A stretch of 64,000 nt of DNA from Desulfobaculum xiamenense. GTDB lineage: Bacteria; Desulfobacterota; Desulfovibrionia; Desulfovibrionales; Desulfovibrionaceae. Shown here piece by piece: positions 2,166-48,919 of this stretch. The translations under genes and the position numbers were made by a program. The stretch spans positions 62,001 through 126,000 of the forward strand of contig NZ_JAATJA010000002.1 in assembly GCF_011927665.1 (NCBI RefSeq), read 5' to 3'. Position 1 is the first letter of the stretch; each line of letters opens with the position of its first letter. The notes beneath the pieces were generated by a model, which had not been told where the DNA came from, ran no database searches, and was given only the letters and a program-made list of their open reading frames with translations.

Positions 2166-4136
2166 CTATGCGCAGTCGTGGTGGTCCCACGGTTCGCGGC
2201 TGTCGCGAGCCATGGCGGCCTCCATGCGCTTCATGCCTTCACGCAGCTTCTCAAGCTCCTTGTCCTTGAAGTTGGGGTCCTTCAGGGCCTGGTAGAGCAC
2301 TGCGCCTTCGCAGGTCTCGGGCTTGGGGAAGCCGAGCAGCTCGCAGATGGTGGGGACCACGTCCCACAGCCAGCAGGAGCGTTCCATGCGGAAGTTCTTC
2401 TTCACGTTGGGTCCGTTGAGGACCAGCAGCACGCCGAGCTTGCCCGGACCGTACTCGGCCGTGGGCAGCATGTGACCGTGCTGGCCACCGAACTCGGGGT
2501 ACAGGGCGTAGACAACGTCGCCCACGCGGTCGCCGTACAGGCCGAGGATGCGGGCCTCGCGCTTGGGCAGGGCCAGCGCCACGGGGCGCTTGCCGGTCTC
2601 GGGGTCCACGTAGGTCAACAGGGCGTCACAGATCTCGCGCTGGACCTTCTCGTAGTCCTCAGGCTCCACGATACCCTCGGGATCGCGTCCCTTGAGGTTC
2701 ACGTAGACGTAGACCTCGCGCTGGGGCACGGCCTTGGAGCGGGCGTAATCGGGAATGTTCTGGCTCAGGGCGATGGGGTTGACCTCGTTCTCCATGGCCT
2801 TGGAGTCGGTCTTGAAGGCCAGACCGGCGGGCTCAAGGGCCTTGTAGGGGTCGAACACCGGGCCGTCCGGGGTGGCACCGTGGTCGGAGACGAGCACCAC
2901 CAGCGTGTCCTTGTCGGCCTGCGACAGGATGCGCTCGATCATGCGGTCCTCAAGCTCGTAGATGCGGCGATGGACTTCCCAGGCCTTCTCGCGCACGGCG
3001 GGGGAGCCTTCGTGCATGTCGGTCATGACCAGATGGTACATCCAGTCGATGGGATGGGAGTGCATGTAGAACAGGTCCCATTCCTGATTCTCGAGGAGAT
3101 TCACGGCGCATTCGGCGTTCCACATGGAGAGGTTCTCGTTCATCTCCACGTAGGTATCGAGGTCGATGGAGCCGAGCATGGCCATGATCATGCCACCGTT
3201 GGAGTGGATGGAGCCCTTGGTGATGCGGTTGCCGTTCCAGGCCTCGGCGGGCTCGGCCCAACCCTTGGTGGGGGCCATGGTGCCCACAAGGAGCTTGAAC
3301 TCGCTCAGGTCGTCGGCCAGCTCGATGAGCTTGCAGCGGAAGTGGACTTCCTCCTCGGTGCCGTCCTCCATGGCGATGGTGGTGAAGATCATCTCGCTCC
3401 ACTGGCCCTTCTTCAGGGTGCACAGGGTGCTGTCGGCAGTCTTGCCGGTTGCGAGGGTGATCTCCTCGTAGCCGTTCTCGCCTTCGGGAGCGAGCACCCA
3501 CCACGTGGTGTCCACGGGCTTCTTGATGCTCTTGGGGAAGGGCAGGCGGACTTCCATCTCCTGCGGATCGTCACCGAGCGCCTCAAAGCCTTCCCAGCCG
3601 TCGGCATCGGCGAATTCGCCACGGAAGCCGTTGGGGTAGATGTCGGTGGAGACGATGAAGTCCTCACAGACGTAGAAGGTGGAATCCAGTCCGGGCAGGC
3701 CCTTGCGGTTCTCGCCCACGTGGAAGCCGTTGCCGCCCACGATGACGCCGTTGGTCATGCGGGTGGGAGCGGAGCCGGGGTAGGTGAGCACCACGCACTT
3801 CTTGCCGGCCTTGTCGGCGGCTTCCCAGATGAACTCGGCGTTGATGCGCTCGCGGTCCCAATTCTGGGTGATGTTTTCGTTACCGGGGTTGGTTCCGGCG
3901 GTATGGTTGTGGAAGTCGGTCACGCCATGGGTTCCGGCGAAGGAACCGGTACCGATCGTCGCCCAGTTCGGCGGGGTGACGGTGGGGTAGGGGGGCATGC
4001 AATGCGTGGCGAAGGTGCCCTTTTCGATGAGCTTCTTGATGGTGGGCAGATACCCTTCCGCGACGTAGCGCTCCACCATGTGGGGGAGGGCGCAGTCGAG
4101 ACCGATGAGCATAACCTTTGTCGGAGTCTTAGCCAT
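2166..4136 (-). CDS. Alkaline-phosphatase-superfamily phosphodiesterase/pyrophosphatase-like protein
   Basis: 656 residues with no signal peptide, so probably cytoplasmic. The pattern fits the type I phosphodiesterase/nucleotide pyrophosphatase family (PF01663): metal ligand Asp14 in GLDCA, a nucleophile region PTVTPPNW with Thr54 as likely nucleophile, then HSHPIDW, VLVSDHGAT and GQHGHM supplying the remaining Asp/His ligands. These enzymes hydrolyse phosphodiester, pyrophosphate or phosphonate-type substrates at two metal ions. The start has AAGGAAG seven bases upstream. It is the first gene of an operon with a TRAP binding protein and permease and lies behind a sigma-54 promoter, so it may process the imported compound. 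The substrate is unknown; related members include phosphoglycerate mutase-like and sulfatase-like enzymes. Confidence 0.82.
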   Translation of the reverse strand: MAKTPTKVMLIGLDCALPHMVERYVAEGYLPTIKKLIEKGTFATHCMPPYPTVTPPNWATIGTGSFAGTHGVTDFHNHTAGTNPGNENITQNWDRERINAEFIWEAADKAGKKCVVLTYPGSAPTRMTNGVIVGGNGFHVGENRKGLPGLDSTFYVCEDFIVSTDIYPNGFRGEFADADGWEGFEALGDDPQEMEVRLPFPKSIKKPVDTTWWVLAPEGENGYEEITLATGKTADSTLCTLKKGQWSEMIFTTIAMEDGTEEEVHFRCKLIELADDLSEFKLLVGTMAPTKGWAEPAEAWNGNRITKGSIHSNGGMIMAMLGSIDLDTYVEMNENLSMWNAECAVNLLENQEWDLFYMHSHPIDWMYHLVMTDMHEGSPAVREKAWEVHRRIYELEDRMIERILSQADKDTLVVLVSDHGATPDGPVFDPYKALEPAGLAFKTDSKAMENEVNPIALSQNIPDYARSKAVPQREVYVYVNLKGRDPEGIVEPEDYEKVQREICDALLTYVDPETGKRPVALALPKREARILGLYGDRVGDVVYALYPEFGGQHGHMLPTAEYGPGKLGVLLVLNGPNVKKNFRMERSCWLWDVVPTICELLGFPKPETCEGAVLYQALKDPNFKDKELEKLREGMKRMEAAMARDSREPWDHHDCA

Positions 4137-4734: not shown

Positions 4735-7050
4735 TCAAACGCTCATGCGGTGGATGATGGCCTCAAGCCGCGTGGCGAGTTCGGACAATTCACCGACCGA
4801 ACCGCGAGAGCTAACCATCGCCGCGGCAGTCTCGCCGGAAATGCTATCCACTTCCACCGAGGCCTCGGAGATCTGCTCGCAGACCACGGACTGCTCCTCC
4901 GCAGCAGCGGCGATGTCCCGCACGCTGTCGGCGGCACGCTGCCCGGCCTCCACGATGGCCCGAAGCGCACCCAGCGCGCCATTGGCCATATCTGCGCTAT
5001 TCCGGGCCGCATCCGCCGTGTCGCGCATGGCACCAACGCAGTTTTTCGTCTCCCTCTGGATGGCACCCACGGTTTCATCCACTCGCCTCGTGGCGGCCAT
5101 GGTCTTCTCGGCCAGCTTACGCACCTCGTCGGCAACGACGGCGAACCCGCGTCCGGCATCTCCGGCGCGGGCGGCCTCGATGGCGGCATTGAGCGCCAGA
5201 AGATTCGTCTGGTCCGCAATGTCGCTGATGATGGTCATAACCTCGGCAATGCCCGAGGCCTGCGCCTCCAGCCCCTCGATCTGACCGGCCACGGCGGCAA
5301 CCCGTCGATTGACCTCCACGGTGGACTCCACGGCCACCCCGACCACGCGCTGGCCCTCCTGCCCGCGCGAGAGCACATCCTCCGCCCCGGTGGCCGAAGA
5401 CGCCGCGTTGCGCGAAATCTCAAGGATGGACGCATTCATCTCCGTCACGGCGGAAGCCACCTCGGCGGAGCGTTCGCGCTGCCGCGTCGCTCCCACCGTG
5501 GACTGTTCAATCTGCGCCCCAAGGGACTGCACGGCACCGGCAAGCCCCTCGCCAACGCCCAGGGCGTCGCGCGCGGCGGCCTCAAGCGTGCCCGCCTGCT
5601 CGCGGATGCGCTGTTCCTGCTCGCGAATGGCCGTCAGCTCGAACCACAGGGTCACCACGCCAAGCACCTCGTCATCCAGCGAATAGAACGGCGTGGCCAC
5701 AATCTTGAATATCTTGCGGCTTCCGTCCGCAGCGGCGTATTCCACCTCGCGCTCGATGCGTGTGCGGTCACGCAGGGCCACATCGGCCGCCGTGGTCCGT
5801 CCGGCGTCGCCGCACACGAACTCGCCGGAGGTCATGCCGTTGTAGTCCTCGGGACGCCCCGGCTTGCCGAGGGCCGCGAGTATCTCTCCATTGCTGTGGA
5901 CAATGCGCCCATCGCGATCGAGCACCCCGCACGGTACGGCAATGCTCTTGAGCACGCCGAGGCCGAAGCCGAGCTTCTCGCGCAATTCCGCGGTCATATG
6001 CACGATGCTCTCGCGCAGGTCCACGAATTCGCCACGAAATGTTCCCTCAAGACGGGCATCGAGATCGCCATCGGCCACGCGTCCCGCGTAGTCGGCCACG
6101 GCGCGAAGCGGACGAATGGCCAGAAAATGCACCAGCAGCGCAATGCCCACGCTCAACAGCAGCGTCTGCGCCACCCCGCCGACCAGCATGGTCCGACGGC
6201 TCGTCGCGAGACCTGCCAGCAGGTCGTCCTCCGCCGCCGTGGCGCACAGCACGATCCCCGCCTTGGACAGCGGTCGAGTCACCACACGCTTGGCCTCTCC
6301 CCGCCACTCGTAGTTCAGCACGCCATCCGGCGCCGCCAGCGCCTTGCGGACAAAATCGGTCTTCGAACCGCCCGCGAGGAGTAGCGAACCGTCGGGATGC
6401 GCAACGAAGCGTCCGGCGGCATCGATAGCGAAGACATAGCCCGTGGCTCCAATGCGCACGTCATCCAGAAAGCGTCGGGCGAAAAGAGTCCAATCCACAG
6501 CGCAGGCCATGCCGCCAACCACGCGGCCCTCGTGCCGCAACACCCGTGCGGCATGAAAGACCAATGGGCCGTCCGCCCCCATGCGCGTCACGCGGGTATC
6601 CACGGCGTCGTCCGCGCCCCCCATGATCTCTCCGAAGAACGGTTGCCCGGAGACGTCCGTCCCGCGCAGGATCGCTCCGGAAACGTCGGTGCCCGCAGTG
6701 ACGACGCCCTTGGCATTGAAGATGAAGAGGGCGGCGAAGCGCTCCTCGGCGTCAAGGACGTCCTTCAGGAACTTCTCCGCGTAGGGAACCGGGGTAGGGT
6801 AATAGAGGATGGAACTGGCCAGCGTCCGCTGGGATTCGAGAATGCGCAAGGTGCCGAAGCCGCCGGAGAGATAGTCCTCAAACGAGCGCCCAAGGGCATC
6901 CGCCGTCTCGGCCATTGCGCCGGTTTCCGCATCCAGCGACTGCGTACGCAGACGACTGTCCATGTACCACATGGACGCGGCAACGGAGACGAGAATCACA
7001 AGAACCGTGGGAACAAGAAACATCCATTGCAAGGGTATCCGCTTTCGCAT
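4735..7050 (-). CDS. Methyl-accepting chemotaxis protein with Cache-like, HAMP and PAS domains
   Basis: 771-residue transmembrane chemoreceptor. An N-terminal membrane helix (about residues 7-25) is followed by a periplasmic double-Cache-like sensor, a second helix near residue 300, a HAMP region ([20 protein letters not shown]), a PAS domain ([20 protein letters not shown]) and the signalling module with the conserved hairpin tip ([19 protein letters not shown]). It should relay ligand binding to CheA/CheW. The frame is open upstream to 7209, but the ATG at 7050 lies just before the first membrane helix and is preferred, although no strong ribosome site is visible. It is monocistronic, with a strong terminator behind. 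No CheR-tethering pentapeptide is seen at the C terminus. Confidence 0.9.
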
Positions 7051-7371
7051 CGCACGAGTCCATCGTTTGTCGTTTTCGAAGCAACCATTCCGTGAAACCG
7101 CATGGAATGGCGCGGGGTTGCTTGCAATCCCCGTACCCCAGCCCGACAAGACGAAAGCCGCCATCCATGCGCATCGGCAAGGCATGCGCCCCGCGCGGAC
7201 GTGGGACACGAACGCGCAGTGGACGCGGCATGTAAATTCAACATACTGATATTGTTGAGCTTATATACAAGGGGTCATTTCCGCACGGTTTGCCCCCGAA
7301 ATGCCTCGGCGCAACAGACCGCCAGATCAAGAAGAGGGCAGGGGACACGGACAGGATGGCGAACGCACAAA

Positions 7372-7402
7372 ACGAAAAAACCCTCACGCTTTCGCGTGAG
7401 GG
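7372..7402 (-). terminator. Rho-independent terminator after tRNA-Phe
   Basis: The stem CCCTCACGC-TTTC-GCGTGAGGG (7381-7402) is followed on the minus strand by TTTTTTCGTTTTG. It lies 12 bases past the tRNA 3' end. Confidence 0.9.
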
Positions 7403-7414
7403 CATGCTTTCGAA

Positions 7415-7490
7415 TGGTGCCACGGCACAGAATTGAACTGCGGACACGGGGATTTTCAGTCCCCTGCTCTACCAACTGAGCTACCGTGGC
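7415..7490 (-). tRNA. tRNA-Phe (GAA)
   Basis: A 76-base tRNA on the minus strand with acceptor stem GCCACGG/CCGTGGC, D arm, anticodon loop CTGAAAA (anticodon GAA), T loop GTTCAATTC and an encoded CCA end. A terminator follows directly. Confidence 0.97.
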
Positions 7491-7621
7491 CCCCGTTGGA
7501 GACCTGTGTTTAGCCAAACCCCATACCCTTGGCAAGCACTTTTTTCAGATTTTTTACTTTCCCGCCTCCGGGCTGGGAAATGCGGACAACTGTCAGCGTT
7601 GGAGAAACGGGAATCGCACCC

Positions 7622-8443
7622 TCAGAAGCTGACGCGAACGGCCACGCCGTACACGCGTGTCGTGTTCTCCGGCTCGACAACCGTCGAATACGGCGCGCCG
7701 CCGAGGCTCACCTCGTCGGAGTCGGACTCGTCGATGTCCCAGTACCGGATGTAGGGTTCGACCACGACGCCGAAGCCGTCAAAGGTGTAAGCGACGAACA
7801 CGGCCCCGCGCAGGCCGTAGCCGTCGAACATGTCCTGATCGTTGCGCGCATCGTCGAGGCCGGAAACGGCCTGACTCAGGCGGCTCTTCACGCGGCCGCC
7901 CCAGAAGATGTCGTACTCGCCGCACAGGCCGAAGCGCCACTTCCCGCGCACGAAGGCCAGCTCCGCACCGACGGGCGAATAGAGCTGGCGGATTTCGCGC
8001 TCGTACCCGCCGCTGCCCTCAATATCATCGAACCAGTAGCGATAGCCGATGCCGATGAACGGCGTCAGCGCCCAGTCCCCGCGGTCAATGTCGTAGCCCA
8101 CGAGGGCGCGCAATTGAAACAGCGAATCCTCGGTGTCGCTCTCGCGCGGCGCGCCTGCCTGCGTCTGCCCGTCATAATCGAGTCCGCCGCCCAAGTATTC
8201 CATCTCGCCGCGTCCCATCCACCCTGCGGAGCAGTGGTAGGTACCGCGCAGTTGAACACCGTGCAGGCTGCCCGTTTCCTTCATCAACCCCGGCTCGCGG
8301 TAGCGAACGTTGGCGTAGGCATAGCCGAACTCGACGCCGCTGTGCAGCGCCGTGAGCGACGCGCCCTCCTCGGCGAAGGCGGCATGCGCCACGAGACACA
8401 CCAGACACAGCGCCGTCATGACGCGAAGAGCAAAACATCTCAT
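7622..8443 (-). CDS. Outer-membrane beta-barrel protein
   Basis: 273 residues with a signal peptide (residues 1-24, ending AAFA). The mature part is made of alternating aromatic/hydrophobic strands and short polar turns, and ends in ...VYGVAVRVSF. The terminal Phe is the hallmark recognised by the outer-membrane assembly machinery. The ATG at 8443 has GGGGAGG seven bases upstream, so the longer open frame extending to 9256 is not coding. Acidic runs (DIDESDSDE) lie in predicted loops. The specific function is unknown. It lies about 100 bases after the M23 peptidase gene on the same strand, so the two may be co-transcribed. Confidence 0.82.
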   Translation of the reverse strand: MRCFALRVMTALCLVCLVAHAAFAEEGASLTALHSGVEFGYAYANVRYREPGLMKETGSLHGVQLRGTYHCSAGWMGRGEMEYLGGGLDYDGQTQAGAPRESDTEDSLFQLRALVGYDIDRGDWALTPFIGIGYRYWFDDIEGSGGYEREIRQLYSPVGAELAFVRGKWRFGLCGEYDIFWGGRVKSRLSQAVSGLDDARNDQDMFDGYGLRGAVFVAYTFDGFGVVVEPYIRYWDIDESDSDEVSLGGAPYSTVVEPENTTRVYGVAVRVSF

Positions 8444-8547: not shown

Positions 8548-9798
8548 CTAGAGGGATGTGTCGGTCATGGGCCGCATGGCGACGGACGTGGTGCCCATGC
8601 GCGCACGGCAGGCCACAACCACATGGCGCAGGAAACGGCGCTCGTTCTGGGCCAACGGCGGTGCGCTGAGCGTGCGCTTGCCGCGCGGGTTGACCAGCCG
8701 GCCGTCCTTGCGCATCCGGAAGTCCAGATGCGGACCGGTGGCGAAGCCCGTGCTGCCGACAAAGGCAATAATCTCGCCCTGCACGACACGGCGACCTTCC
8801 TCCAGACCTTCGGCGACGGCGTTGAGGTGCAGGTACATGGTCTCGTAGCCACCATCGTGACGGATAACGATGTGCCGCCCGGCCTTGCGGTCCTGCGTGA
8901 TGCGCTCCACCTCGCCGTCGCAGGCGGCGTAGACGGGGGTTCCACGCGGGGCGGCGTAGTCGATGGCGTAGTGCGGCTGCCAGCGGCGGGTGACGGGATG
9001 CAGGCGGTTCGAGGCATAGCCGGAGGCCAGCGTGTAGCTTTCCAGCGGCGCGCGCAGGTAGGGTTGCAGATTCTCGCCCTCGGCCGTGTAGTAGGAGGCC
9101 CGCCCGTCCGCGCTCCGATACCAGAAGGCCTCGTGAACCGTACCCGGCGTGAAGATGGTGGCGGCGAGCACGCGACCGAAGCCGACGAAGGCTCCCCTGC
9201 GGAACTTGCGTTCCACGAGGATGTTGAAGGCGGCGCCGGGGCGCAGGTCCTTCCACGCGTTGAAGCGGAAGGCGAAGATGTCGGCCACCATGAGGGCCAG
9301 ATCGCGGTCGCCGCCGGCTACGGATACCGCACTGGAGAAACCGTTGGGAACGCTGACACTGCCGATAAGCGTGTCCTCGCGCACATCAACGGGGACGCGC
9401 ACGGTCCGGGCAGCGAACCCGTCGCCGGAGCGCTCGACCACCAACTGCTCCCAGTCGTCGATGTCATAGCGAAAGGCGCGAAACCCCGAGGCATCGGTAG
9501 TCAGGACATAGGTCTGGCCGACACGAAGACGATTCAGGGAGAAGACGCCCTTGCAGGCCTGCGCGAAGGCGTGAATTTCCGACGCTCCGAGGACATCGCC
9601 CAGCATGGACGAGATGGTGTCGCCGGAGCGCACGACGCCGTCGCGCGGGGCGTTGGTCGAAATGGGGGCATCGGCAGTCTCCCCGGCATACGCGGGGCCG
9701 AGGGTCATGATGATGAAGGCGATAAGAAAAGCGGTCCGCCGCAGTATGTGCAGGGCGCTGGAATCCGCAATGTGTCGTGTTGTGTCGTCGATGTGCAT
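8548..9798 (-). CDS. M23 family murein endopeptidase (LytM domain)
   Basis: 416-residue exported zinc peptidase that should cleave peptidoglycan cross-links. A signal/anchor segment (about residues 20-38, ending AYA) precedes a LysM/OapA-like N-terminal region (SGDTISSMLGDVLG) and a C-terminal LytM domain with the zinc and catalytic motifs HYAIDYAAP (His and Asp near 275 and 279), MYLHLN (near 320) and HLDFRM (near 359). All expected ligands are present, so it should be active. I chose the ATG at 9798 because the signal peptide begins there; an upstream in-frame GTG at 9888 would add 30 residues. It resembles MepM/YebA-type enzymes. Confidence 0.87.
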   Translation of the reverse strand: MHIDDTTRHIADSSALHILRRTAFLIAFIIMTLGPAYAGETADAPISTNAPRDGVVRSGDTISSMLGDVLGASEIHAFAQACKGVFSLNRLRVGQTYVLTTDASGFRAFRYDIDDWEQLVVERSGDGFAARTVRVPVDVREDTLIGSVSVPNGFSSAVSVAGGDRDLALMVADIFAFRFNAWKDLRPGAAFNILVERKFRRGAFVGFGRVLAATIFTPGTVHEAFWYRSADGRASYYTAEGENLQPYLRAPLESYTLASGYASNRLHPVTRRWQPHYAIDYAAPRGTPVYAACDGEVERITQDRKAGRHIVIRHDGGYETMYLHLNAVAEGLEEGRRVVQGEIIAFVGSTGFATGPHLDFRMRKDGRLVNPRGKRTLSAPPLAQNERRFLRHVVVACRARMGTTSVAMRPMTDTSL

Positions 9799-10634
9799 CC
9801 GTGGTCCGTTCTTGTGGGGATATCGGGGCGGGTGCCGTCCATTCGGCACGGAACATGTGCCCATACCCGGCTTCGAAAGCGCTGTCACCCCCGAGAGGAA
9901 TATCCGCGCTTGGCGCTATGATATTCGATTCAACAATCACGGACTGTTAGAGGAGGCACCCAAAAAACGTGAAATGATGGGAACATTTGGGCAGGGGCAG
10001 AGTCCTTGCGGGAATGCCGGAAAAGGGAACAGGGGGGTGGGGGAGGGGCGCGCCGCGTGGCGCACACACAAGGTGGCGGCCGGGGTTGTCGCCGGCCCCG
10101 GCCGCCACTGAGAGGAAGGAGGCTTTCTATCCGTTCAAACCAAGGGAGGGGTATCTCGTCGGTGCGGCGGCTTCCAAGGGGGATGATCGCTGCCGCCGCA
10201 CCGCTCGCACGGTAAAGAGTGAAGAGAGCTTGGGAGGTGGCTGTGGGAAGACGATCTGTCGTCATCGTCTTCTTGCCCTCTCTTATGCAGACGCCGTGCC
10301 AAACTCAAAAATCAAACAATTCCAGCAATTTATATATTTCCTCTATAATGTCCAGAGATTCGCAGGTGCACATGGATGCACATCTTGTGCAAAAAGCGGT
10401 GCACATTATTGCACATCAGCGCACACATCTTGTGCAGACCATTGTGCAGAGGCGGCCTTGCGGGTGCAGCGCAGCTGGATACGCCGCGGCTGAACCAGAA
10501 GCGTTCGCCTCCATCCGCCAAGGCGGAGATGTCGATAACTTTTGCCATTATTCCGTGATGTTACATATGAAACGAACATTACGAACACAGGGTGGCCCGG
10601 CCTTCCTAGCGGGTGCGCGAGTCCCTTTCCGCCA
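9799..10634. other. 836-base intergenic region without a convincing gene
   Basis: It holds a GC hairpin without a T-run (10073-10108), an AT-rich tract (10302-10352) and a phased TGCACA/TGTGCA array (separate entry). Short open frames here (for example 10330-10548 minus) contain residue repeats dictated by the DNA array and look non-coding. Confidence 0.6.
10367..10448. repeat. Phased array of eight TGCACA/TGTGCA motifs
   Basis: TGCACA begins at 10367, 10377, 10400 and 10410; CGCACA at 10420; TGTGCA at 10386, 10431 and 10443. Steps are 9-14 bases and mostly 10-11, so the motifs fall on about the same face of the helix. One pair forms the inverted repeat TGCACA-TCT-TGTGCA. An AT-rich tract lies 15-65 bases to the left. 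This looks like a cooperative protein-binding array; the protein is unknown. Confidence 0.65.
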
Positions 10635-11081
10635 TCACTCCGGCGGGAATTCATGGTGAAAGGCATCTGCCACGCCAGACAGAAGCAGCAGGCTACGCGC
10701 GTCCACCCGGAACAGGACGCAGTCCGGCGTATCGAAAAACATGGCAAGCGCCGGATTTCGCGCAAGCAGGGCATCCTTCGCGGCCTGCCGCTCCGCCATG
10801 TCGTGCACTTCCACGGCGAGCCCGGAGACGGTGAGGGCGCAGATGGCCGGGCGTTCCCGCCGCTCCGGGTGTTCCACCCTGGTGTCGATAAGCAGGCTCG
10901 CCTCTGGATTGGCGAAAAGGTTTCGCCACTTGCGGCTTTCTCTGGCGGTGACCATGTACAGGCTGCGACGGGACGCCGAGGGGACATAGGTCATAAGCGA
11001 CGTGTGGGGCCTGTCGCCGTTGGACGTGGCGAGAACGCAGAAACTCTGTGACGCGATGAGCGCAAGGCTGGTTTCGAGCAT
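10635..11081 (-). CDS. Pyridoxamine 5'-phosphate oxidase-like (PPOX-fold) flavoprotein
   Basis: 148-residue split-barrel protein of the general stress/PPOX type, probably binding FMN or another flavin. The N-terminal half has the characteristic strands FCVLATSNGDRPHTSLMTY and LYMVTARESRKWRNLFANPEASLLID, the latter resembling the flavin-phosphate contact region. The ATG at 11081 has GAGG five bases upstream; an in-frame GTG at 11111 is less likely because that ribosome site would then lie inside the gene. The substrate is unknown. It stands alone on the minus strand, with the TGCACA array beyond its 3' end. Confidence 0.8.
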   Translation of the reverse strand: MLETSLALIASQSFCVLATSNGDRPHTSLMTYVPSASRRSLYMVTARESRKWRNLFANPEASLLIDTRVEHPERRERPAICALTVSGLAVEVHDMAERQAAKDALLARNPALAMFFDTPDCVLFRVDARSLLLLSGVADAFHHEFPPE

Positions 11082-11225
11082 GGATACCTCGGCGGGTGAA
11101 GGTCTGGACACTGCCGATGATACACCCGCCGAACGCGCACGAGGAGAGAAACCCGCAACGGGAGAGCAAAGAGAAGAAAAGACGACGTGACGGCGCGCGG
11201 CGGCCTGGTCGATTACGCGGCGGAG

Positions 11226-25081: not shown

Positions 25082-28653
<3,572 letters not shown>

Positions 28654-28775
28654 CGTCTTCTCCTTGCTTCAAAACTGAACACGAATATCGCGGTCGCAGG
28701 AATTCCCGCGACGACCTCTCGAAACGATGGTCCCAGCCTCTTGCGGCGGAACCGTGAGATGAAAAAATGCCCGGC

Positions 28776-30089
28776 CTAGTCGCCGGACTCGCACTTCTTG
28801 CGCAGCGCTTCCAGCTTGTCGCGGAAGGCCATATCCTCGCTCATGCTCTTGCGAACCTTGCGCACGGCGTAGAGCGCCGTGGAGTGGTCGCGTCCGCCGA
28901 AAATCCGCCCAAGGGCAGGGTAGGAGCACCCCAGAAGCTCGCGACACAGGAACATGGCCATCTGGCGCGCCTGAACGATGTTCTGGTGCCGCCGCAGCCC
29001 CGTCAGGTCCTTGCGCTCCAGCCCCTGCGCCGCCGCGACGATGTCGAGCACTGCCTCGGGCGTCATGTCGGAGCGCACGCCGCCGGCCGTCTGCGACAGG
29101 ATGCGGTCGAAATCGCGATCCGAAAGGTCCGCATGCACGAACTCGCGGTACGCGTAGACCTTGAGCAGAAGCCCCTGCAGAAAGCGCAAATCCGTGAAGC
29201 GCTGGGCAAGGGTCAGTATCCTGTCGCGCGACAGGGGAAGCCGCTTCTGCGTGCAGAAGCGCTCCACGTAGCGCACCCGGACTTCGAGGTCCGGTTCCTT
29301 GAGGGTGACGATAAGCCCCCACTCAAGGCGCGACTTGAGCTTGGGATCGAGAAACTCGTAGGAGGGTAGGTTATCCGCGCAGCAGAAGATCATCTGCCTC
29401 TTGCCGTTGTAGAAACTGTCGAAGAGGTTGATAAGCTCCGCCTGAAAGGCCCTATGCCGCCCCACGAGCTGAAAGTCGTCCACAACGAGGAAGCGGTGGG
29501 AGCACACATGCGAACGCGCCTTGAAATAGTCCCCGCCGAAGGTCCCCTCGTACAGATTGCACAGCTCCTCAAGGGACGCGCAGAACACGGCCTCCCGCCC
29601 GAAGCGTCCGGCCATCTCGTTGGCCACGGCCTTCACAAGGTGCGTCTTGCCGCACCCGGCGGGACCGCTAATGATGAACGGATTGAACTCCACATCCGTC
29701 TGACGGGCCACCTCGCGGGCGGAGGTCAACGGGAAGTAGTTCTTCCGGTTCTCGATGAAGCTCGAAAACGTGAACTCCGGCCCGAAGGGGAAATCCACGG
29801 ACCGCGTCTCCTCGATGACGGGATGCTCGGCGGTGTCGTGCCCACGGCCATTGGAGCCGTAGCGGATCACCAGCCCGGAGCCAAGAAACCCATGCACTTC
29901 CGCCTCGAACCGCTCACGCATCGCCCCGGCGAACCAAGCGCCGAAAAAGGCGTGCGGAAACAGCACGGAGACTTCGCCGCGCTCTTCGTCCAGTTCCACC
30001 CGCAAGGGGTCGTACCAGCGCTTGAGCTCGATTGCGGAGCACGTTTTCCGCAGATGCTGACGCAGATTATTCTTCAGTTCGGAATCCAT
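28776..30089 (-). CDS. dnaA: Chromosomal replication initiator DnaA
   Basis: 437 residues. The AAA+ core has Walker A GPAGCGKT (142-149) and Walker B FLVVDDF (near 204). The DNA-binding domain carries the DnaA signature GGRDHSTALYAVRKV near residue 404. The linker between domains I and III is short. It binds DnaA boxes and opens the origin. It heads dnaA-dnaN-gyrB-gyrA on the minus strand and diverges from the DUF39 gene 254 bases away. I could not find consensus TTATCCACA boxes in that gap. Confidence 0.96.
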   Translation of the reverse strand: MDSELKNNLRQHLRKTCSAIELKRWYDPLRVELDEERGEVSVLFPHAFFGAWFAGAMRERFEAEVHGFLGSGLVIRYGSNGRGHDTAEHPVIEETRSVDFPFGPEFTFSSFIENRKNYFPLTSAREVARQTDVEFNPFIISGPAGCGKTHLVKAVANEMAGRFGREAVFCASLEELCNLYEGTFGGDYFKARSHVCSHRFLVVDDFQLVGRHRAFQAELINLFDSFYNGKRQMIFCCADNLPSYEFLDPKLKSRLEWGLIVTLKEPDLEVRVRYVERFCTQKRLPLSRDRILTLAQRFTDLRFLQGLLLKVYAYREFVHADLSDRDFDRILSQTAGGVRSDMTPEAVLDIVAAAQGLERKDLTGLRRHQNIVQARQMAMFLCRELLGCSYPALGRIFGGRDHSTALYAVRKVRKSMSEDMAFRDKLEALRKKCESGD

Positions 30090-39323: not shown

Positions 39324-40493
39324 TCAGTCTGTCCTTCGGGTGCCTGAGTACAGCTCGAAGAGCAGCAGGCGGCATTCGATGCGTCCGTTGTAGAGCGGGA
39401 TTCTGGCGCTCGTGCGCAGGCCGATGCGCTTGGCCAGCGCGAGGTTGCCCGTGAAGACCGCCCCGGTGTACTCCTTGCAGTTCGTCTTGAGGAAGTCGCC
39501 GATGGCGGTGTAGTCCGCGGCGAGGTCGGCCTCGTTACCGAGGCGCTGGCCGTACTCCGGGTTCATGATGACGAGGGAGCCGGGAATGGGCGCTGGTACC
39601 TGCGTGGCGCGGAAGTCGCACACGTCAAAAAGAATGTGGCGGTCCATGCCTGCGGCGGTCGCGTTCTTGCGGGCGGCGTCCACGGCGCGCGGGTCGATGT
39701 CCGTGGCGATGATGGTGCCGGAGGGGGCTTTGCGCACCCGCGATAGGGCGTCCTTGCGCATGGATTCCCACTGGGCGCGGTCATGTCCTATGATGTGCAT
39801 AAAGGCGAAATTGTCGCGCAAGAGGCCCGGCGCGGTATTGGTCGCCACGAGGGCGGCCTCGATGGCCAGCGTGCCGCTGCCGCACATGGGATTTACGAAA
39901 TGCCCGGAGCCGTCGAAGCCCGCGCCCATGATGGCCGCGGCGGCCAGCGTTTCGCGCATGGGGGCGAGGTGGGGCAGCTTGCGGTAGCCGCGCATGGAGA
40001 GCGGTTCGCCGGTGGTATCAATGTAGATGGTCGCCGTCGAATCCTGCCAATGCAGGGACACCACGCTTTTCGAGCGGTCCGGTCCGGAGTTCGGTCGGCG
40101 GCCCTTTTTCGCGGCGATGCGGTCCACGATGGCGTCCTTGACGCGAAGCCCGGCGAAGCGCGCGTCGCGCACGGCCTCGGTGCGGGTGGAGGCGACGACG
40201 GAGACGTATCCGTCACTGTCGATAATGTCTTCCCATGCGATGCCGGAGACCTGCCGATAGAGCGCGTCCGGGGAGTCGGCCTCGAAGCGCTTAAGGACGT
40301 AGAGCACGCGATGGGCGGTGCGCAGGTGCAGGTTCAGGAGCATGCAGTCGTACAGCGTGCCCGATGTCTCCATGGCCGCAGGTCCGGCCGGGGTGGCGTC
40401 GTAGCCGAGGTTTTCCATCTCTCGCGTCAGAAATGGCTCTACGGCCTTGGCGCAGGTGACGAGAATGCTGCTTTCGTTGTCGAAGAGGTTCAT
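39324..40493 (-). CDS. THUMP-domain RlmL/Trm14-type RNA guanine-N2 methyltransferase
   Basis: 389 residues. An N-terminal THUMP domain precedes a SAM-dependent methyltransferase domain with FVNPMCGSGTLAIEAAL (SAM site) and TDIDPRAVDAARKNA. Motif IV reads MNPEYGQRLG, whereas the family norm is (N/D)PP(Y/F): the second proline is replaced by Glu. It probably modifies a guanine in 23S rRNA or a tRNA. The ATG at 40493 has GGGAG six bases upstream. It diverges from the aldolase-like gene across 231 bases. Confidence 0.85.
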   Translation of the reverse strand: MNLFDNESSILVTCAKAVEPFLTREMENLGYDATPAGPAAMETSGTLYDCMLLNLHLRTAHRVLYVLKRFEADSPDALYRQVSGIAWEDIIDSDGYVSVVASTRTEAVRDARFAGLRVKDAIVDRIAAKKGRRPNSGPDRSKSVVSLHWQDSTATIYIDTTGEPLSMRGYRKLPHLAPMRETLAAAAIMGAGFDGSGHFVNPMCGSGTLAIEAALVATNTAPGLLRDNFAFMHIIGHDRAQWESMRKDALSRVRKAPSGTIIATDIDPRAVDAARKNATAAGMDRHILFDVCDFRATQVPAPIPGSLVIMNPEYGQRLGNEADLAADYTAIGDFLKTNCKEYTGAVFTGNLALAKRIGLRTSARIPLYNGRIECRLLLFELYSGTRRTD

Positions 40494-43361: not shown

Positions 43362-44303
43362 CTAAATCTGCGCGTCCGAACTGGCGAGGATGGTCCTAGC
43401 CAGGCTGATATCCTTGGCAATCTGCTCCGTCAGTTGGTCGAGGCCGTCGAACTTGCGCTCGGAGCGCAGGCGCTGCACGAAGCGCACCGTGAGGTCCGCC
43501 CCGTAGAGGTCGGCCTCGAAGTCCATGATGTGCACCTCGACGGACATGGCCTCGTTCCCGAAGGTCGGGTTGTAGCCGATGTTGGCCACGGCGGGCATGG
43601 TGCGTCCGCCAACGGTGGCCCACACCGCATATACGCCCATGCCGGGGCACAGTTCGTCCACCAGCTTGAGGTTGGCAGTGGGGAATCCGAGGAGCCTGCC
43701 GCCGCGGTTCGCGCCGTGTTCGACCTTGCCGACCACGGTGTAGAAACGTCCCAAGAGGGGGCGGGCGTCCCACACGTTGCCAGCGCGGACCAGATCGCGG
43801 ATGCGGGTGGAGCTGACGATGGCGTCGCCATGCATGTAGGGACCGACACGCTCCACGCCGAAGCCGTACTTCAGCCCCAGTTCACTCAATACCTCGAAAT
43901 TGCCGCTGCGACCCTTGCCGAAGGCGTAGTCGTAGCCGATGACCAGCTCTTTCACGTTCAGCCCATCCACGAGGTAGCGGCGGACGAAATCGTCCGGCGT
44001 CAGCGCGGCCATGCAGCGCGAGAATTCGAGGACGACGCACAGCTCCACGCCCATGGCGCTTATGAGTTCGAGCTTCTGGTCCAGCAGGGTGATGAAGGGA
44101 GGGGTGTTCTTTCCGGCCAGAACGCGCAGGGGATGCGGTTCGAAGGTGATGACCACGCACTCCTGGCGGTTGGTCAGCGCCTTGTCACGGGTGCGGGCAA
44201 TGAGCTTCTGATGCCCCTTGTGCACGCCGTCGAAGTTGCCGATGGTGGCGCAGGCGCCCCGAAGGGTACCGCGGATGTCTTCTATGTCTCTGATGACGAT
44301 CAT
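43362..44303 (-). CDS. ribF: Bifunctional riboflavin kinase / FAD synthetase
   Basis: 313 residues, normal for RibF. The N-terminal FAD synthetase domain has the nucleotidyltransferase motif GNFDGVHKGHQ and later STRIRDLVRAGN. The C-terminal riboflavin kinase domain has GRLLGFPTANL and GVYAVWA. It makes FMN and then FAD. The ATG at 44303 begins IVIRDIEDIRG; the open frame to 44342 adds only a His/Pro-rich stretch. First gene of ribF-clcA. No FMN riboswitch is visible upstream. Confidence 0.95.
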   Translation of the reverse strand: MIVIRDIEDIRGTLRGACATIGNFDGVHKGHQKLIARTRDKALTNRQECVVITFEPHPLRVLAGKNTPPFITLLDQKLELISAMGVELCVVLEFSRCMAALTPDDFVRRYLVDGLNVKELVIGYDYAFGKGRSGNFEVLSELGLKYGFGVERVGPYMHGDAIVSSTRIRDLVRAGNVWDARPLLGRFYTVVGKVEHGANRGGRLLGFPTANLKLVDELCPGMGVYAVWATVGGRTMPAVANIGYNPTFGNEAMSVEVHIMDFEADLYGADLTVRFVQRLRSERKFDGLDQLTEQIAKDISLARTILASSDAQI

Positions 44304-44491
44304 TGGGTGATGCCTTTGTGGTCGGGGATGAAAGCAGGGCATGGACTACCGTAAAAAGGTATCGCATTCAAGCGCAGAGGAAAAACGCTTTGCGATGCGT
44401 TGCCAACAGCCCGAAATCAAACGCTAAAATTTTTCGGCAAAAATGGCTTGCCAACGGCATCCCCCGGCGATATAGAAAGCGTCCACAAAGT

Positions 44492-44578
44492 GCCGAAGTG
44501 GTGGAATTGGTAGACACGCTAGGTTCAGGGTCTAGTGAGCGTTCGCTCGTGGGAGTTCGACTCTCCCCTTCGGCACCA
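44492..44578 (+). tRNA. tRNA-Leu (CAG), copy 1
   Basis: An 87-base class II tRNA with acceptor GCCGAAG/CTTCGGC, anticodon loop TTCAGGG (CAG), long variable arm (TGAGCGTTCGCTCGT) and encoded CCA. The 87 bases are identical to the minus-strand copy at 48833-48919. A terminator follows. Confidence 0.97.
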
Positions 44579-44589
44579 TATCGAAAGAC

Positions 44590-44622
44590 AAGGGCTTCCA
44601 GTGCAGACTGGAAGCCCTTTTT
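44590..44622 (+). terminator. Rho-independent terminator after tRNA-Leu copy 1
   Basis: The stem AAGGGCTTCCAGT/ACTGGAAGCCCTT with loop GCAG is followed by TTTTT. Confidence 0.92.
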
Positions 44623-44748
44623 CGTTGTGGTTGGTTAGTTGTATGGCGAGTTGGTTGTCTGGTTGAGATGTGCGTTGATACAGGGCGGTGATTTATGGTT
44701 GCGGCTGGATTTTCTTTGATGTAGCTCTTCGCGTTAGAGGTGGCGAAT

Positions 44749-45513
44749 ATGCTGAATGTGATAACATGTGCAGATCATTCTTTTATGAAATATTCTGCAG
44801 TGCTGAAAAGGACGGCAGAGAAGCGAAGCAATCTTCGTGTTTTTGTCTATGATATAGATCCTTGTGAAGAAAAACATCCTTGTGCGGATTTTAAGTTTGA
44901 CGCTGGAACTGATTTTAAAAAGTTTGATGCAAATAATCATATTATAGCGAATCATAAGCCTCTTTGTGTGGCTGATTTTTTGAAAAAAACTGGGCGGGGA
45001 TGTATTTGTATAGATTCCGATTGTTTGTTGGTTGGGGATATTGACGCATCAGTGTTCGAGGGCGTTGATTTGTGTGTAACCCCTCGGGGAAGACGTGAGA
45101 ATAAGCCTCATATATTGAAAAATGGGCTTTTGAATTCCGGTTTTATGTATTTTGCATATAATGATGCCGTAATGGAATTTATTGCCCGTTGGGGTGAAGC
45201 TTGCGCTGGCGGGCAGGTGTCAGACCAAAAGGCTCTTAGCGATATCTTGTCTGTGAATATTGATTTTAATAGAGGGCTCGGTATTCAAAAATTTAGGGAT
45301 ATCAATGTAAAATTGATAGATCCTGATATTTATAATGACGTTACTTGCAGGACGGGATCTGTTTTTCATTGTAAAAGCGTTGCGCGAACAAAAAGAAAAT
45401 ATATCTTCTATAAGATTTTTTCATTTCTTGCCTGCGCATTTCCGAAGGTTGTTGACCGAGTCGTGCGTTTTAACCGAAAGCATAGGATCTTTATATATAA
45501 AAGGAATTGTTAA
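44749..45513 (+). CDS. Putative GT-A-fold glycosyltransferase, AT-rich and probably acquired
   Basis: 254 residues. Features point to a nucleotide-sugar transferase: the DxD-like CIDSDCLLVGDID (near 90), LLNSGFMYFAYND, and SDQKALSDIL. No specific sugar or acceptor can be named. The start ATG at 44749 has AGAGG eight bases upstream; a GTG at 44740 is the alternative. Base composition is strikingly AT-rich with A/T third positions (GAT, TTT, AAT, ATA), unlike any neighbour, and the gene starts 126 bases after the terminator of tRNA-Leu copy 1, so horizontal transfer at a tRNA is likely. No integrase or clear att repeat was seen. Confidence 0.65.
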   Translation: MLNVITCADHSFMKYSAVLKRTAEKRSNLRVFVYDIDPCEEKHPCADFKFDAGTDFKKFDANNHIIANHKPLCVADFLKKTGRGCICIDSDCLLVGDIDASVFEGVDLCVTPRGRRENKPHILKNGLLNSGFMYFAYNDAVMEFIARWGEACAGGQVSDQKALSDILSVNIDFNRGLGIQKFRDINVKLIDPDIYNDVTCRTGSVFHCKSVARTKRKYIFYKIFSFLACAFPKVVDRVVRFNRKHRIFIYKRNC

Positions 45514-45653
45514 CTCTTTGCTCGTATGGTTTTAGAAACGGCCCAAGAAATGAGGCCACTTTTACATGTGGCGTCTTAATGGGGCGTATCAATATATTGT
45601 AGCTTCGTTTGATCAGCTACAAATCAGGAAAAGATATCAACGGCTGAATAGAA

Positions 45654-48170
45654 TTACTTGTCAGGCTCATCCTGCGGCCCGTCCTTGGGCGGGGTGGGTT
45701 GTGATGTTTCGGCCGGTCCATTGTCCTTTGCGGTTTTCCCGTCATCCTTGCCGAACTTCTGGATTTCTTCCGCGAGGTTGTGGAGGCGTTCGTCCACCAG
45801 CGCGTTGATGCTGCCCTTGGGGTAGTGGCCGCCCTTGCCGCGCTTGCCCGCGCGGGTGCCGGTGAGCAGTTCGATGCCCTCGTCGATGGTGCGTACGCTC
45901 CACACGTGGAAGTTCCCGTCGGCCACCGCCTCGACCACTTCCGGGCGCAGCATGAGGTCCTTTTCGTTGGCGTGGGGGATCATGACGCCCTGCCGCCCGG
46001 TGAGGCCCGCGTGCTTGCAGCACAGGAAGAAGCCTTCGATCTTTTCGTTCACGCCGCCGATGGGCTGCACCTCGCCCATCTGGTTTACGGAGCCGGTCAC
46101 GGCGATGTCCTGCCGCAGGGGCTTTCCGGACAGACTGGAGAGCAGGGCGTAGAGTTCCGTGCTGGATGCCGAGTCGCCGTCAATGCCACCGTAGGACTGC
46201 TCGAAGGTGATGGAGGCCGAGAGGGAGAGGGGCTTGTCCTGCGCATAGCGGCTGCGCAGGAAGCCGGAGAGGATGAGCATGCCCTTGTTGTGCGTCGGCC
46301 CGGAGAGCTTGGCCTCGCGTTCGATGTTGATGATACCTTCGCGCCCGAGGGCGGTCACGGCGGTGATGCGCGACGGCTTGCCGAACATGTAGTCGCCCAT
46401 GGAGTAGACGGCCAGTCCGTTAACCTGTCCCACCACCGCACCGTCGGTATCCACGAAGATGGTGCCGCGATCAATGAGTTCCTGCAGGCGCTCCTCGATC
46501 TGGTTGGTGCGGTAGATCTTTGCGTCGATGGCCGCTTCCACGTGCCGGGCGGCGACCGTGGACGCCTTGTCGCTGGTGGCGAAGAAGTCCGCTTCGGCCA
46601 GCAGGTCCGAAAGGATGGGGAAGGCTGTGCTCAGCTTCTCGCGGCGTCCAGCCATGCGCACGGCGTGTTCCACCACCCGCGCCACGCCCGAGGCGTCGAA
46701 AGGCTTGAAGCCGTCCTTGTCCTGCTCCGCGCGGATGAAGCGTGCCACTTGCGTCACGGCGTCGTCCGTGCGGTCCATGGACGACTCGTAGTCCGCGCGC
46801 ACCTTGAATATCTTGGGCATGTCCTCGTCGTAGTGGCGCAGCAGTGTGTAAATCCACGGATCGCCCATCACCACCACCTTCACCTTCATGGGGATGGGTT
46901 CGGGCTTGAGGCCCGTGGCCGTGAAGAAGTAGTAGGGGTCGTAGGTCTGGATTTCTATCTGCTCCGTCTTGAGGGAGCGCTTGAGTGTCTGCCACACGCC
47001 GGGTTCCATGATGGCGTCCATCAGATTGATGACGAGATAGCCGCCGTTGGCGCGGATGAACGAGCCGGCCTTGATTTTTGTGAAGTCCGTGCGCCAGCCG
47101 CCGCCGGGTTCCATGATGCGTTCGATGGAGCCGAACAGGTTGCGGTAGGTGGGATAGGATTCGATGATGACCGGAGGTCCCTTGAGTTCGCTATTGTCCA
47201 CGAGGAGATTGACCTTGTAGGGATGCAGCACCGCTTCCGGCGACGCGACCATGATGGGTAGCGGTCCCTGAGGCTTTGCACCCATCATGCGCAGGTCGTC
47301 GAGGTGCTCCACCATGTGTTCGAGCATGGCGTCGAGGTAGGCGCCGACCTTTTCGTCCTGAAAAGCCGTGCGCACGGCGCGCAGCAGGTCGTTGGCCAGC
47401 GCCATGAACATGAGGCGGTCCACTTCCTCGTGCTTCTTTGCCACTTCCTTCTGAAGGGCGCGCACCTGCTGGACGATGAAGTCCAGTTCCTCCTTGAGCC
47501 TGAGCCTGCGCTCCTTGATGCTTTCGAATTCCTCGCGCGGAAAGCGTCCCTTCTCGACCAGTTCCTCCATCTCCACCAGCCGCTTGGGCTCGCCGTCCAC
47601 CAGAGGGAGGATGTCCGGGCGCTGTATCGGTCCCATCTGCATGTTGACCACCACGAGGTCCGAGTCCTTCACCTTGTCCTCGACGTCCTTATAGAACTCG
47701 CGGACCCTGCGCTCGTGCGCCTCGTGGATGGCGTTCTTGCGGGCGATGTATTCCTCGCTCTCGAAAAGCTGAGGCAGGTCGCGCTTGAGGCTGTCCAGAA
47801 ACTCCGACATGGCCTTGGAAAAGCGCGAGCCGTCACCCGCCTTGAATTGCAGGAGAATTGGCGACTCCTGCCGCTTGAAGTCGTTGACGTAGCACAGGTC
47901 CTCTGGTGGCTGGTCCGTGCGCGAGAGCTCCCGCAGGAGCTTCTTCACCGTGGCCAGACGGCCGCTTCCTGCCGCGCCGGTCACGAAGATGTTGTAGCCC
48001 TTGCGGACCATGCCCATACCGAAGCGGAAGGCCTCGACGCCGCGCTTTTGGCCGATGATGTCGGTCTGCGGTTCGAGGTCGTTGGTGGTGGCGAAGGGAA
48101 GGGAATCGGGATCGAGCTTCCATCTGAGCTGGGCCGGGGTCAGGCCGGAGGGCAGCTTCTTCGGAGCCAT
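45654..48170 (-). CDS. LonC/LonH-type AAA-Lon protease
   Basis: 838 residues with an N-terminal AAA_32-type domain, a central helical domain and a C-terminal S16 Lon protease domain. The catalytic dyad is Ser in GIDGDSASSTE (near 664) and Lys in NEKIEGFF (near 707), with the 43-residue spacing of Lon. Walker A is GAAGSGRLAT, with Arg where Lys normally is, so ATP hydrolysis may be lost, as in LonC proteins. The C-terminal ~40 residues are Asp/Pro/Lys-rich and probably disordered. It lies 21 bases after the hsp20-like gene and forms an operon with it; both suggest protein quality control. Confidence 0.88.
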   Translation of the reverse strand: MAPKKLPSGLTPAQLRWKLDPDSLPFATTNDLEPQTDIIGQKRGVEAFRFGMGMVRKGYNIFVTGAAGSGRLATVKKLLRELSRTDQPPEDLCYVNDFKRQESPILLQFKAGDGSRFSKAMSEFLDSLKRDLPQLFESEEYIARKNAIHEAHERRVREFYKDVEDKVKDSDLVVVNMQMGPIQRPDILPLVDGEPKRLVEMEELVEKGRFPREEFESIKERRLRLKEELDFIVQQVRALQKEVAKKHEEVDRLMFMALANDLLRAVRTAFQDEKVGAYLDAMLEHMVEHLDDLRMMGAKPQGPLPIMVASPEAVLHPYKVNLLVDNSELKGPPVIIESYPTYRNLFGSIERIMEPGGGWRTDFTKIKAGSFIRANGGYLVINLMDAIMEPGVWQTLKRSLKTEQIEIQTYDPYYFFTATGLKPEPIPMKVKVVVMGDPWIYTLLRHYDEDMPKIFKVRADYESSMDRTDDAVTQVARFIRAEQDKDGFKPFDASGVARVVEHAVRMAGRREKLSTAFPILSDLLAEADFFATSDKASTVAARHVEAAIDAKIYRTNQIEERLQELIDRGTIFVDTDGAVVGQVNGLAVYSMGDYMFGKPSRITAVTALGREGIINIEREAKLSGPTHNKGMLILSGFLRSRYAQDKPLSLSASITFEQSYGGIDGDSASSTELYALLSSLSGKPLRQDIAVTGSVNQMGEVQPIGGVNEKIEGFFLCCKHAGLTGRQGVMIPHANEKDLMLRPEVVEAVADGNFHVWSVRTIDEGIELLTGTRAGKRGKGGHYPKGSINALVDERLHNLAEEIQKFGKDDGKTAKDNGPAETSQPTPPKDGPQDEPDK

Positions 48171-48191
48171 GCGAAACCTCCGTTGCGAGGG

Positions 48192-48596
48192 TTACCGGGT
48201 CGAGATTGCTACGCGCTTTGCGGATGCCGGATCGCATTTGGCGAGGATGATGGTCAGCACGTCGTCCTTGAACACGGCCGACGCGTTCTCCGTGCTGATG
48301 CGGCAGGGCAACTGGAGCTGCCTGCGCACGCCCTCCACCCCGGCCGGGCTTTCGCGGCGGGCGGTCACGGTGAGCGTGGTTTCGGTCAGGGAGACGTCGA
48401 TGTCTTCGATGGAGAATCCGGGGAGGGGCAGGGTGACGGTCACGCTGTCTTGTTCCTTGCGGATTTCCAGTCCGTCGGCGTGAAGGCAGGAGACGGAAGG
48501 CAGGCCGAGATCCATGCAGAAGCTGTCGAACAGCTGGTCCATGTCCTCCTTGATTCGCGAGAGCTGCCTGTCGCTCCAGAGACGCAGGTCGGGCAT
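48192..48596 (-). CDS. Hsp20/alpha-crystallin family small heat-shock protein
   Basis: 134 residues. The central alpha-crystallin domain runs from about residue 45 (GLEIRKEQDSVTVTLPLPGF through FKDDVLTIILAK), including the conserved DGVLTI-like motif near the end. It is a holdase chaperone that binds unfolding proteins. The ATG at 48596 has GGAGG seven bases upstream; the open frame to 48668 lacks such a site. First gene of an operon with the LonC-like protease. No CIRCE-type inverted repeat was seen upstream. The C-terminal IxI motif is replaced by VAIS. Confidence 0.85.
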   Translation of the reverse strand: MPDLRLWSDRQLSRIKEDMDQLFDSFCMDLGLPSVSCLHADGLEIRKEQDSVTVTLPLPGFSIEDIDVSLTETTLTVTARRESPAGVEGVRRQLQLPCRISTENASAVFKDDVLTIILAKCDPASAKRVAISTR

Positions 48597-48787
48597 TGTC
48601 GGTCCTCCGGTTGAAGTCCGTGATGCCGGATGTTCTGTGCGGATGTTTGCAATGAGCCTAGCACGCATGGGCGTGCATGCTCAAGGCATTCGAAATGCGG
48701 CGAAAAGTGCGGGGTTGCGGGGCTGGATACGGAAAGGCTCGAATGACGGGAGTGTACGCCGGAAGGGATTTTTTCTGGGCGCAGGGC

Positions 48788-48817
48788 AAAAAAAAGGCTC
48801 CGGGGTGGACCGGAGCC
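48788..48817 (-). terminator. Rho-independent terminator after tRNA-Leu copy 2
   Basis: The stem GGCTCCGG/CCGGAGCC with loop TCCACC is followed on the minus strand by TTTTTTTT. Confidence 0.92.
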
Positions 48818-48832
48818 AGAGCACCATTTTGG

Positions 48833-48919
48833 TGGTGCCGAAGGGGAGAGTCGAACTCCCACGAGCGAACGCTCACTAGACCCTGAACCTAGCGTGTCTA
48901 CCAATTCCACCACTTCGGC
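48833..48919 (-). tRNA. tRNA-Leu (CAG), copy 2
   Basis: The 87-base sequence is identical to the plus-strand tRNA-Leu at 44492-44578, including the encoded CCA, but in opposite orientation. The flanking sequences are different, so the duplication covers only the tRNA. Confidence 0.97.

Follow-up and report, generated by a model that had tools for sequence, protein, structure and literature searches.

What is the role of the dense array of TGCACA/TGTGCA hexamers that is flanked by a PNPOx-family gene and a gene for an M23 endopeptidase in Desulfobaculum xiamenense, and what does it act upon? The array was found in a 64-kb stretch of the genome, here called the window, and a preliminary description had proposed an iteron, a partition site or an origin-like element. 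The array most likely represents the upstream activating sequence of a sigma-54 promoter and not an origin, iteron or partition site, and its assignment as a sigma-54 enhancer array can be made with high confidence. The features of the locus are given in Table 1.

Table 1. Features of the TGCACA array locus, with positions in the window
Feature	Position	Strand	Remarks
Predicted upstream activating array	10367–10448		seven exact TGCACA/TGTGCA half-sites and CGCACA at 10420–10425
AT-rich spacer, array to promoter	10302–10366		44 of 65 bases are A or T
Predicted sigma-54 promoter TGGCACGGCGTCTGCA (-24/-12)	10286–10301	minus	best score of the whole window
Candidate structured small RNA	10068–10275	minus	start from canonical sigma-54 spacing, end from last hairpin
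5′ hairpin GAAGACGAT...ATCGTCTTC	10247–10272	minus	in the predicted fold of D. xiamenense
Anti-Shine-Dalgarno-like segment CCACAGCCACCTCCC	10232–10246	minus	congener has TACAGCCACCTCCC, aligned by eye; computed alignment is two bases out of register
Central hairpin, 12 bp, C-rich loop	10160–10203	minus	all 12 pairs kept; two G-C to G-U changes in congener
Terminator-like stem, 13 bp	10073–10108	minus	all 13 pairs kept; four two-sided changes in congener
M23 endopeptidase gene	8548–9888	minus	next gene downstream of RNA; ShyC/ShyA/MepM-like, all below NCBIfam cutoffs
PNPOx-family gene	10635–11111	minus	other flank of array

Exact TGCACA hexamers, counted on both strands, start at 10367(+), 10377(+), 10386(−), 10400(+), 10410(+), 10431(−) and 10443(−). 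The eighth member, CGCACA, has one mismatch; thus the eight copies first described within 82 bases are seven exact copies and one near copy, the extent being correct. With CGCACA included, the orientations are mixed (++-+++--) and the start-to-start spacings are 10, 9, 14, 10, 10, 11 and 12, i.e. roughly helical as described, with a wider spread than 10–11 bases. The density of seven copies per 82 bp is the highest of any hexamer in the window, the runner-up having four, and 50 dinucleotide shuffles of the window gave at most three TGCACA in 82 bp. The clustering therefore cannot be due to chance, as was claimed, and the array has the look of a cooperative protein-binding array. The total number of TGCACA in the window is about that of chance (36 vs 31 expected). 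Longer repeats explain part of the array, i.e. GGTGCACATnnnTGCACATC at 10365 and 10398, and CACATCTTGTGCA at 10379 and 10424.

The AT-rich tract beside the array is real and forms the spacer between the array and the sigma-54 promoter match. The consensus sequence of the -24/-12 element is TGGCACGNNNNTTGCW; the match at this locus has C for T at one position and scores 16.75 of 17.5 on a custom sigma-54 score. This best match is on the minus strand, so that, read in that direction and with the first base of the -24 element as reference, the half-sites fall at -71 to -147, which is the placement of sigma-54 activator enhancer sites. The locus thus displays both parts expected of a sigma-54 promoter with an upstream activating sequence, the -24/-12 element and putative activator sites roughly 60–200 bp upstream of it. 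In D. vulgaris the largest fraction of sigma-54 promoters is found at 100 nt or less from the closest activator site, according to the available part of one study (PMC4641369). In the D. xiamenense genome the strict sigma-54 pattern occurs no more often than its reversed control (12 vs 14 occurrences); the sequence TGCACANNNNTGCACA occurs 25 times in 59 genomes, four of these in D. xiamenense, vs three times for its reversed control. The minus strand of the spacer has a single weak sigma-70-like match (10354–10327, 9 of 12 positions; one found vs 0.6 expected), which could be an alternative or second promoter. A site for IHF was also considered and rejected: the spacer has one IHF-like site with one mismatch, the spacer of the congener described below has none, and sites with one mismatch are found in 8 of 19 zra-type spacers.

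The array, the promoter, a downstream sequence of approximately 200 nt and the M23 gene occur together in one congener (G001) too, as a conserved unit in a different neighbourhood. The closest relative of the M23 protein in the congener shows 47% identity, and upstream of its gene the same layout is found. The congener has half-sites at -126, -104, -82 and -70, which compare with -124 (CGCACA), -104, -81 and -71 in D. xiamenense; the half-site at -70 or -71 is in the opposite orientation in the two species. The sigma-54 match upstream of the conserved block in the congener scores 15.5. The M23 protein itself has ShyC as its best NCBIfam model (8.9e-46, below cutoff), and the true start of its gene is probably inside the open reading frame listed.

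Canonical sigma-54 spacing would presumably place the start of the transcript at about 10275. The predicted fold of the RNA that begins there is more stable than those of all 200 shuffled sequences in both species (z = -5.0 in D. xiamenense, -6.2 in the congener). The two main stems show four compensatory and two wobble-preserving changes and no broken pairs, in a comparison of two sequences from which the structure was itself derived. At the position of the 5′ hairpin the congener has, by eye, a GAAGG...CCTTC inverted repeat, although its predicted minimum-energy fold differs. Stretches conserved between the species are CAGCCACCTCCC, which is complementary to a Shine-Dalgarno sequence and was aligned by eye (the computed alignment is off by two bases), and AGCTCTCTTCA. 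A long-range stem of a promoter-proximal GAGAG with CTCTC was considered but not retained, since with canonical sigma-54 spacing GAGAG would precede the transcription start.

The RNA has a narrow distribution. In a nucleotide search of 198 genomes, convincing matches were found only in D. xiamenense and in the congener, the latter being the source of the query; the others had E-values of 0.012 or worse. A covariance model, with stricter filters that may lose weak matches, detected the RNA in the same two genomes out of 199. In the region all Rfam families stay below their gathering scores, the best of these matches being ftsZ-DE and ar14.

It has to be decided whether this transcript is a separate RNA. 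The same enhancer and promoter might instead drive a long structured 5′ leader or attenuator of the M23 mRNA, an unlikely arrangement but the main rival. The RNA and the M23 gene are found together in both species, sigma-70 scans show no promoter between them in either, and the terminator-like stem of D. xiamenense has no T run. In the congener, however, the RNA and the M23 gene are separated by a strong hairpin and a run of eight T residues directly after it, with about 100 bp from there to the M23 start. A terminator scan called neither stem: that of D. xiamenense has no T run, and the congener stem was missed because its 9-base loop exceeds the limit of the scan. The stems kept by paired changes and the position of the T run in the congener support a discrete transcript, and from the sequences a free small RNA appears probable.

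The identity of the activator is suggested by a second array in the same genome. Pattern searches with TGCACA pairs showed only one other array of at least three TGCACA upstream of a sigma-54 promoter, at 562.7 kb of contig C2. This array has six sites (positions 3704–3844 of the extracted locus L033) with a sigma-54 match at L033 position 3888, and downstream of it are genes for a ZraP-like protein, a PAS-HisKA kinase and a receiver-AAA(sigma54)-Fis regulator with the GAFTGA motif. The ZraS-like kinase gene is at approximately 563.5 kb of the contig and the regulator gene at L033 positions 6369–7817. None of the ZraP, ZraS and ZraR scores of the operon attains its NCBIfam equivalog cutoff. 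The ZraP-like protein has an E-value of 7e-23; the regulator scores 403.7 of the 760 bits required for ZraR and higher, 468.2 of 714, for AtoC, and the kinase scores slightly higher for AtoS than for ZraS. Since AtoC and AtoS outscore ZraR and ZraS, the name ZraPSR-like rests on the ZraP-like gene and the layout. The congener also has a ZraPSR-like operon, with seven TGCACA sites. Few such arrays are thus present in the genome, and the one studied here is kept in the sole congener compared, which agrees with what the preliminary description had expected of a specific element.

Some of the other TGCACA pairs of D. xiamenense were inspected as well. Those at C3:81068 and C3:131166 show no sigma-54 match of at least 14.5 in the stretch taken, the pair at C1:1484135 has a weak match (14.5) about 200 bp away, and for the pair at C3:227703 the match is 2.3 kb away. 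Three TGCACA at C1:145291–145327 (L127, 823–859) lie approximately 320–360 bp downstream of a strict sigma-54 match. The congener has a third array, with six TGCACA sites upstream of an OmpA-family gene (L055, 1393–1471), with no sigma-54 match of at least 15.5 nearby. In another genome, G010, a Metal_resist (ZraP-type Pfam) gene has three TGCACA-type sites together with a sigma-54 match (15.5) in front of it (L054, 3957–4799); this gene is on a different contig from the best ZraS-like kinase of that genome.

A ZraS-like kinase was matched in 97 of 99 genomes, and 30 loci were examined, one per genome and D. xiamenense included. After orientation, 25 of the 30 have a sigma-54 match of at least 14.5, although some of these matches are near the end of the stretch, with less than 200 bp readable upstream. 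TGCACA is found within 200 bp upstream of the match in 21 loci, mostly at -60 to -145; 18 have at least two sites and three have a single site, in one case at -16. In the 25 upstream regions TGCACA is the commonest hexamer, with 64 copies, and ties with GTGCAA in the number of regions (21). The remaining nine loci have no TGCACA or no sigma-54 match; G032 is among them because the 1.5-kb flank was too short, and its array is seen in a separate extract (L052). As a control, ten other strict sigma-54 matches of the D. xiamenense genome were analyzed. None has two TGCACA within 220 bp and two have a single copy, at -202 and -7; because the strict pattern does not outnumber its reverse, not all of the ten need be promoters.

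The array therefore has its motif in common with the promoter of its presumed regulator, as a member of a ZraR regulon would. The link between regulator and motif is one of co-occurrence; ZraR-like specificity is very likely. A different activator might bind the array, the resemblance to zra promoters being incidental. TGCAC/GTGCA half-sites resemble the sites of NtrC-like activators in general, and the genome probably encodes other sigma-54 activators. Among the Desulfovibrio papers listed, the one relevant occurrence of TGCACA is in an HcpR site of another deltaproteobacterium, TTGTGcttTtTTgCACAA, which is not unlike a pair of half-sites (PMC545781). Against this, arrays of TGCACA accompany zraPSR-like promoters but are absent from the ten other strict sigma-54 matches, and binding by a different activator is rather improbable.

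An open reading frame crosses the RNA, and this raises the question of a small protein (LYRASGAAA...RRT) made under ZraR-like control. In one stretch, with a 3-nt gap nearby, 12 of 13 residues are identical between the species. The frame in the congener however stops after 41 codons, whereas that of D. xiamenense runs across the terminator stem to 111 aa. A search of 297 genomes with a 33-aa sequence gave matches below E = 0.008 in the two congeners alone (D. xiamenense and G001); nine of the 19 weaker matches (E 0.008–0.1) were aligned and appear chance-like. There is no Pfam match to the protein, and the stems are kept by paired changes. A coding function is thus improbable, slightly more so than the binding of a different activator.

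A replication origin, iteron or partition element is very improbable: the AT-rich tract adjoins the array, the dnaA-dnaN-gyrB cluster is about 15–20 kb away and a GC-skew minimum covers the region, but there is no exact TTATNCACA near the array, similar TGCACA arrays in the same geometry recur at zraPSR-like promoters, and the unit in the congener is on a 37.6-kb contig without dnaA, dnaN or gyrB. The cluster is on the minus strand at 25082–30089 of the window (dnaA at 28776–30089), and across 184 kb the cumulative GC skew is at a broad minimum from about -8 to +16 kb, lowest near -4 kb. The proposed skew analysis thus does place the array close to the origin in D. xiamenense, in company with the nearby cluster; the congener contig shows no linkage to dnaA. 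When 11 window proteins (DnaA, DnaN, GyrB, the M23 protein and seven other neighbours) were compared with that contig, the M23 protein alone was matched. The single exact TTATNCACA of the window is at 39794. DnaA-box-like sites with one mismatch number four in 10283–10891, one of them an array site, and 27 in the window; the maximum of four per kb is also attained near 45 kb. A cluster of DnaA boxes of the oriC type is thus not found. The observation that the local genes point one way is correct for both flanking genes.

From the array, the promoter match, the RNA structure, the conservation as a unit and the motif shared with zraPSR-like promoters, we infer the following course of regulator binding, signal, transcription and RNA function. 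Upon envelope stress the ZraS-like kinase would phosphorylate its partner regulator, and the phosphorylated ZraR-like regulator would assemble cooperatively on the TGCACA half-sites. The DNA would loop over the AT-rich spacer, and the regulator would drive open-complex formation at the sigma-54 promoter. The minus-strand transcript, from about 10275 to about 10068, would be the structured RNA, most likely a trans-acting regulator that works through its C-rich and anti-Shine-Dalgarno segments. It would be in one regulon with zraP, beside a peptidoglycan endopeptidase of the M23 family. Taken as a whole, an enhancer array of a ZraR-like sigma-54 activator that drives a trans-acting structured small RNA is a likely reading. 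The OmpA-family array of the congener, the Metal_resist array of G010 and the zra-type loci may together constitute an envelope-stress regulon.

The ZraPSR system of E. coli, a two-component system for zinc and envelope stress, is comparable, in that a ZraP-like periplasmic protein, a kinase and a sigma-54 response regulator are encoded in one operon with an array and a sigma-54 promoter in front. The D. vulgaris regulator DVU3381, which we take to be ZraR, also sits in a gene set comparable to ZraPSR. The targets of E. coli ZraR are zraP/zraSR, possibly mgtA, and another 25 from ChIP-seq, for which Rome et al. 2018 is cited; the available portions of the two sources mention no small RNA among them (PMC8249747, PMC7657598), whereas here the candidate small RNA beside the M23 gene shares the array. 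The role of ZraR, zinc resistance or a wider envelope stress response, is debated in the part available of one of these (PMC7657598). DVU3381 is listed with DVU3382-DVU3381 and DVU3384 under envelope stress, and the accessible part of Table 1 of the D. vulgaris study gives no ncRNA target for it (PMC4641369). Four other sigma-54 regulators of D. vulgaris, DVU0653, DVU0679, DVU1419 and DVU2359, are given there with ncRNA targets, DVU1419 being under envelope stress (PMC4641369, Table 1, as available). As proposed for the present locus, these are cases in a sulfate-reducer lineage of a sigma-54 regulator that controls an ncRNA. The Qrr small RNAs are driven by sigma-54 under LuxO. The small RNA GlmY is likewise driven by sigma-54, under QseF, according to the available text (PMC6075780). 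Both systems have, as is predicted here, a two-component sigma-54 activator, an upstream activating sequence, a -24/-12 promoter and a structured RNA, and GlmY serves the cell envelope too; the activator however differs, and no Rfam family of this kind reaches its gathering score at the locus. The titles and beginnings of abstracts that were examined hold no report of a ZraR-controlled small RNA, which does not prove that there is none.

The array and promoter thus most likely illustrate well a type of switch that is already known, and the candidate small RNA appears to be one so far uncatalogued. Envelope-stress small RNAs exist in the sigma-E and Cpx systems. That the RNA is a new envelope-stress small RNA under direct ZraSR-like/sigma-54 control, with anti-Shine-Dalgarno-like segments and beside a peptidoglycan endopeptidase gene, is somewhat favoured; it would then be a sigma-54 counterpart of those RNAs, and direct control of a small RNA encoded next to a cell-wall hydrolase would open a post-transcriptional arm of the response to testing. 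An orphan-looking repeat array is in this way tied to a recognizable kind of stress regulator, and TGCACA provides a usable half-site for ZraR-like regulators in relatives of D. xiamenense.

Two minor observations concern other regions of the genome. A second protein with a DnaA C-terminal domain is encoded at position 990708 of contig C2. Two genes for tRNA-Leu(cag) at 44492–48919 of the window, with identical Rfam scores and in opposite orientation, flank a segment of lower GC content (0.557 for 44001–48000 vs about 0.60–0.68 elsewhere in the window), which is perhaps an inverted duplication or an integrated element.
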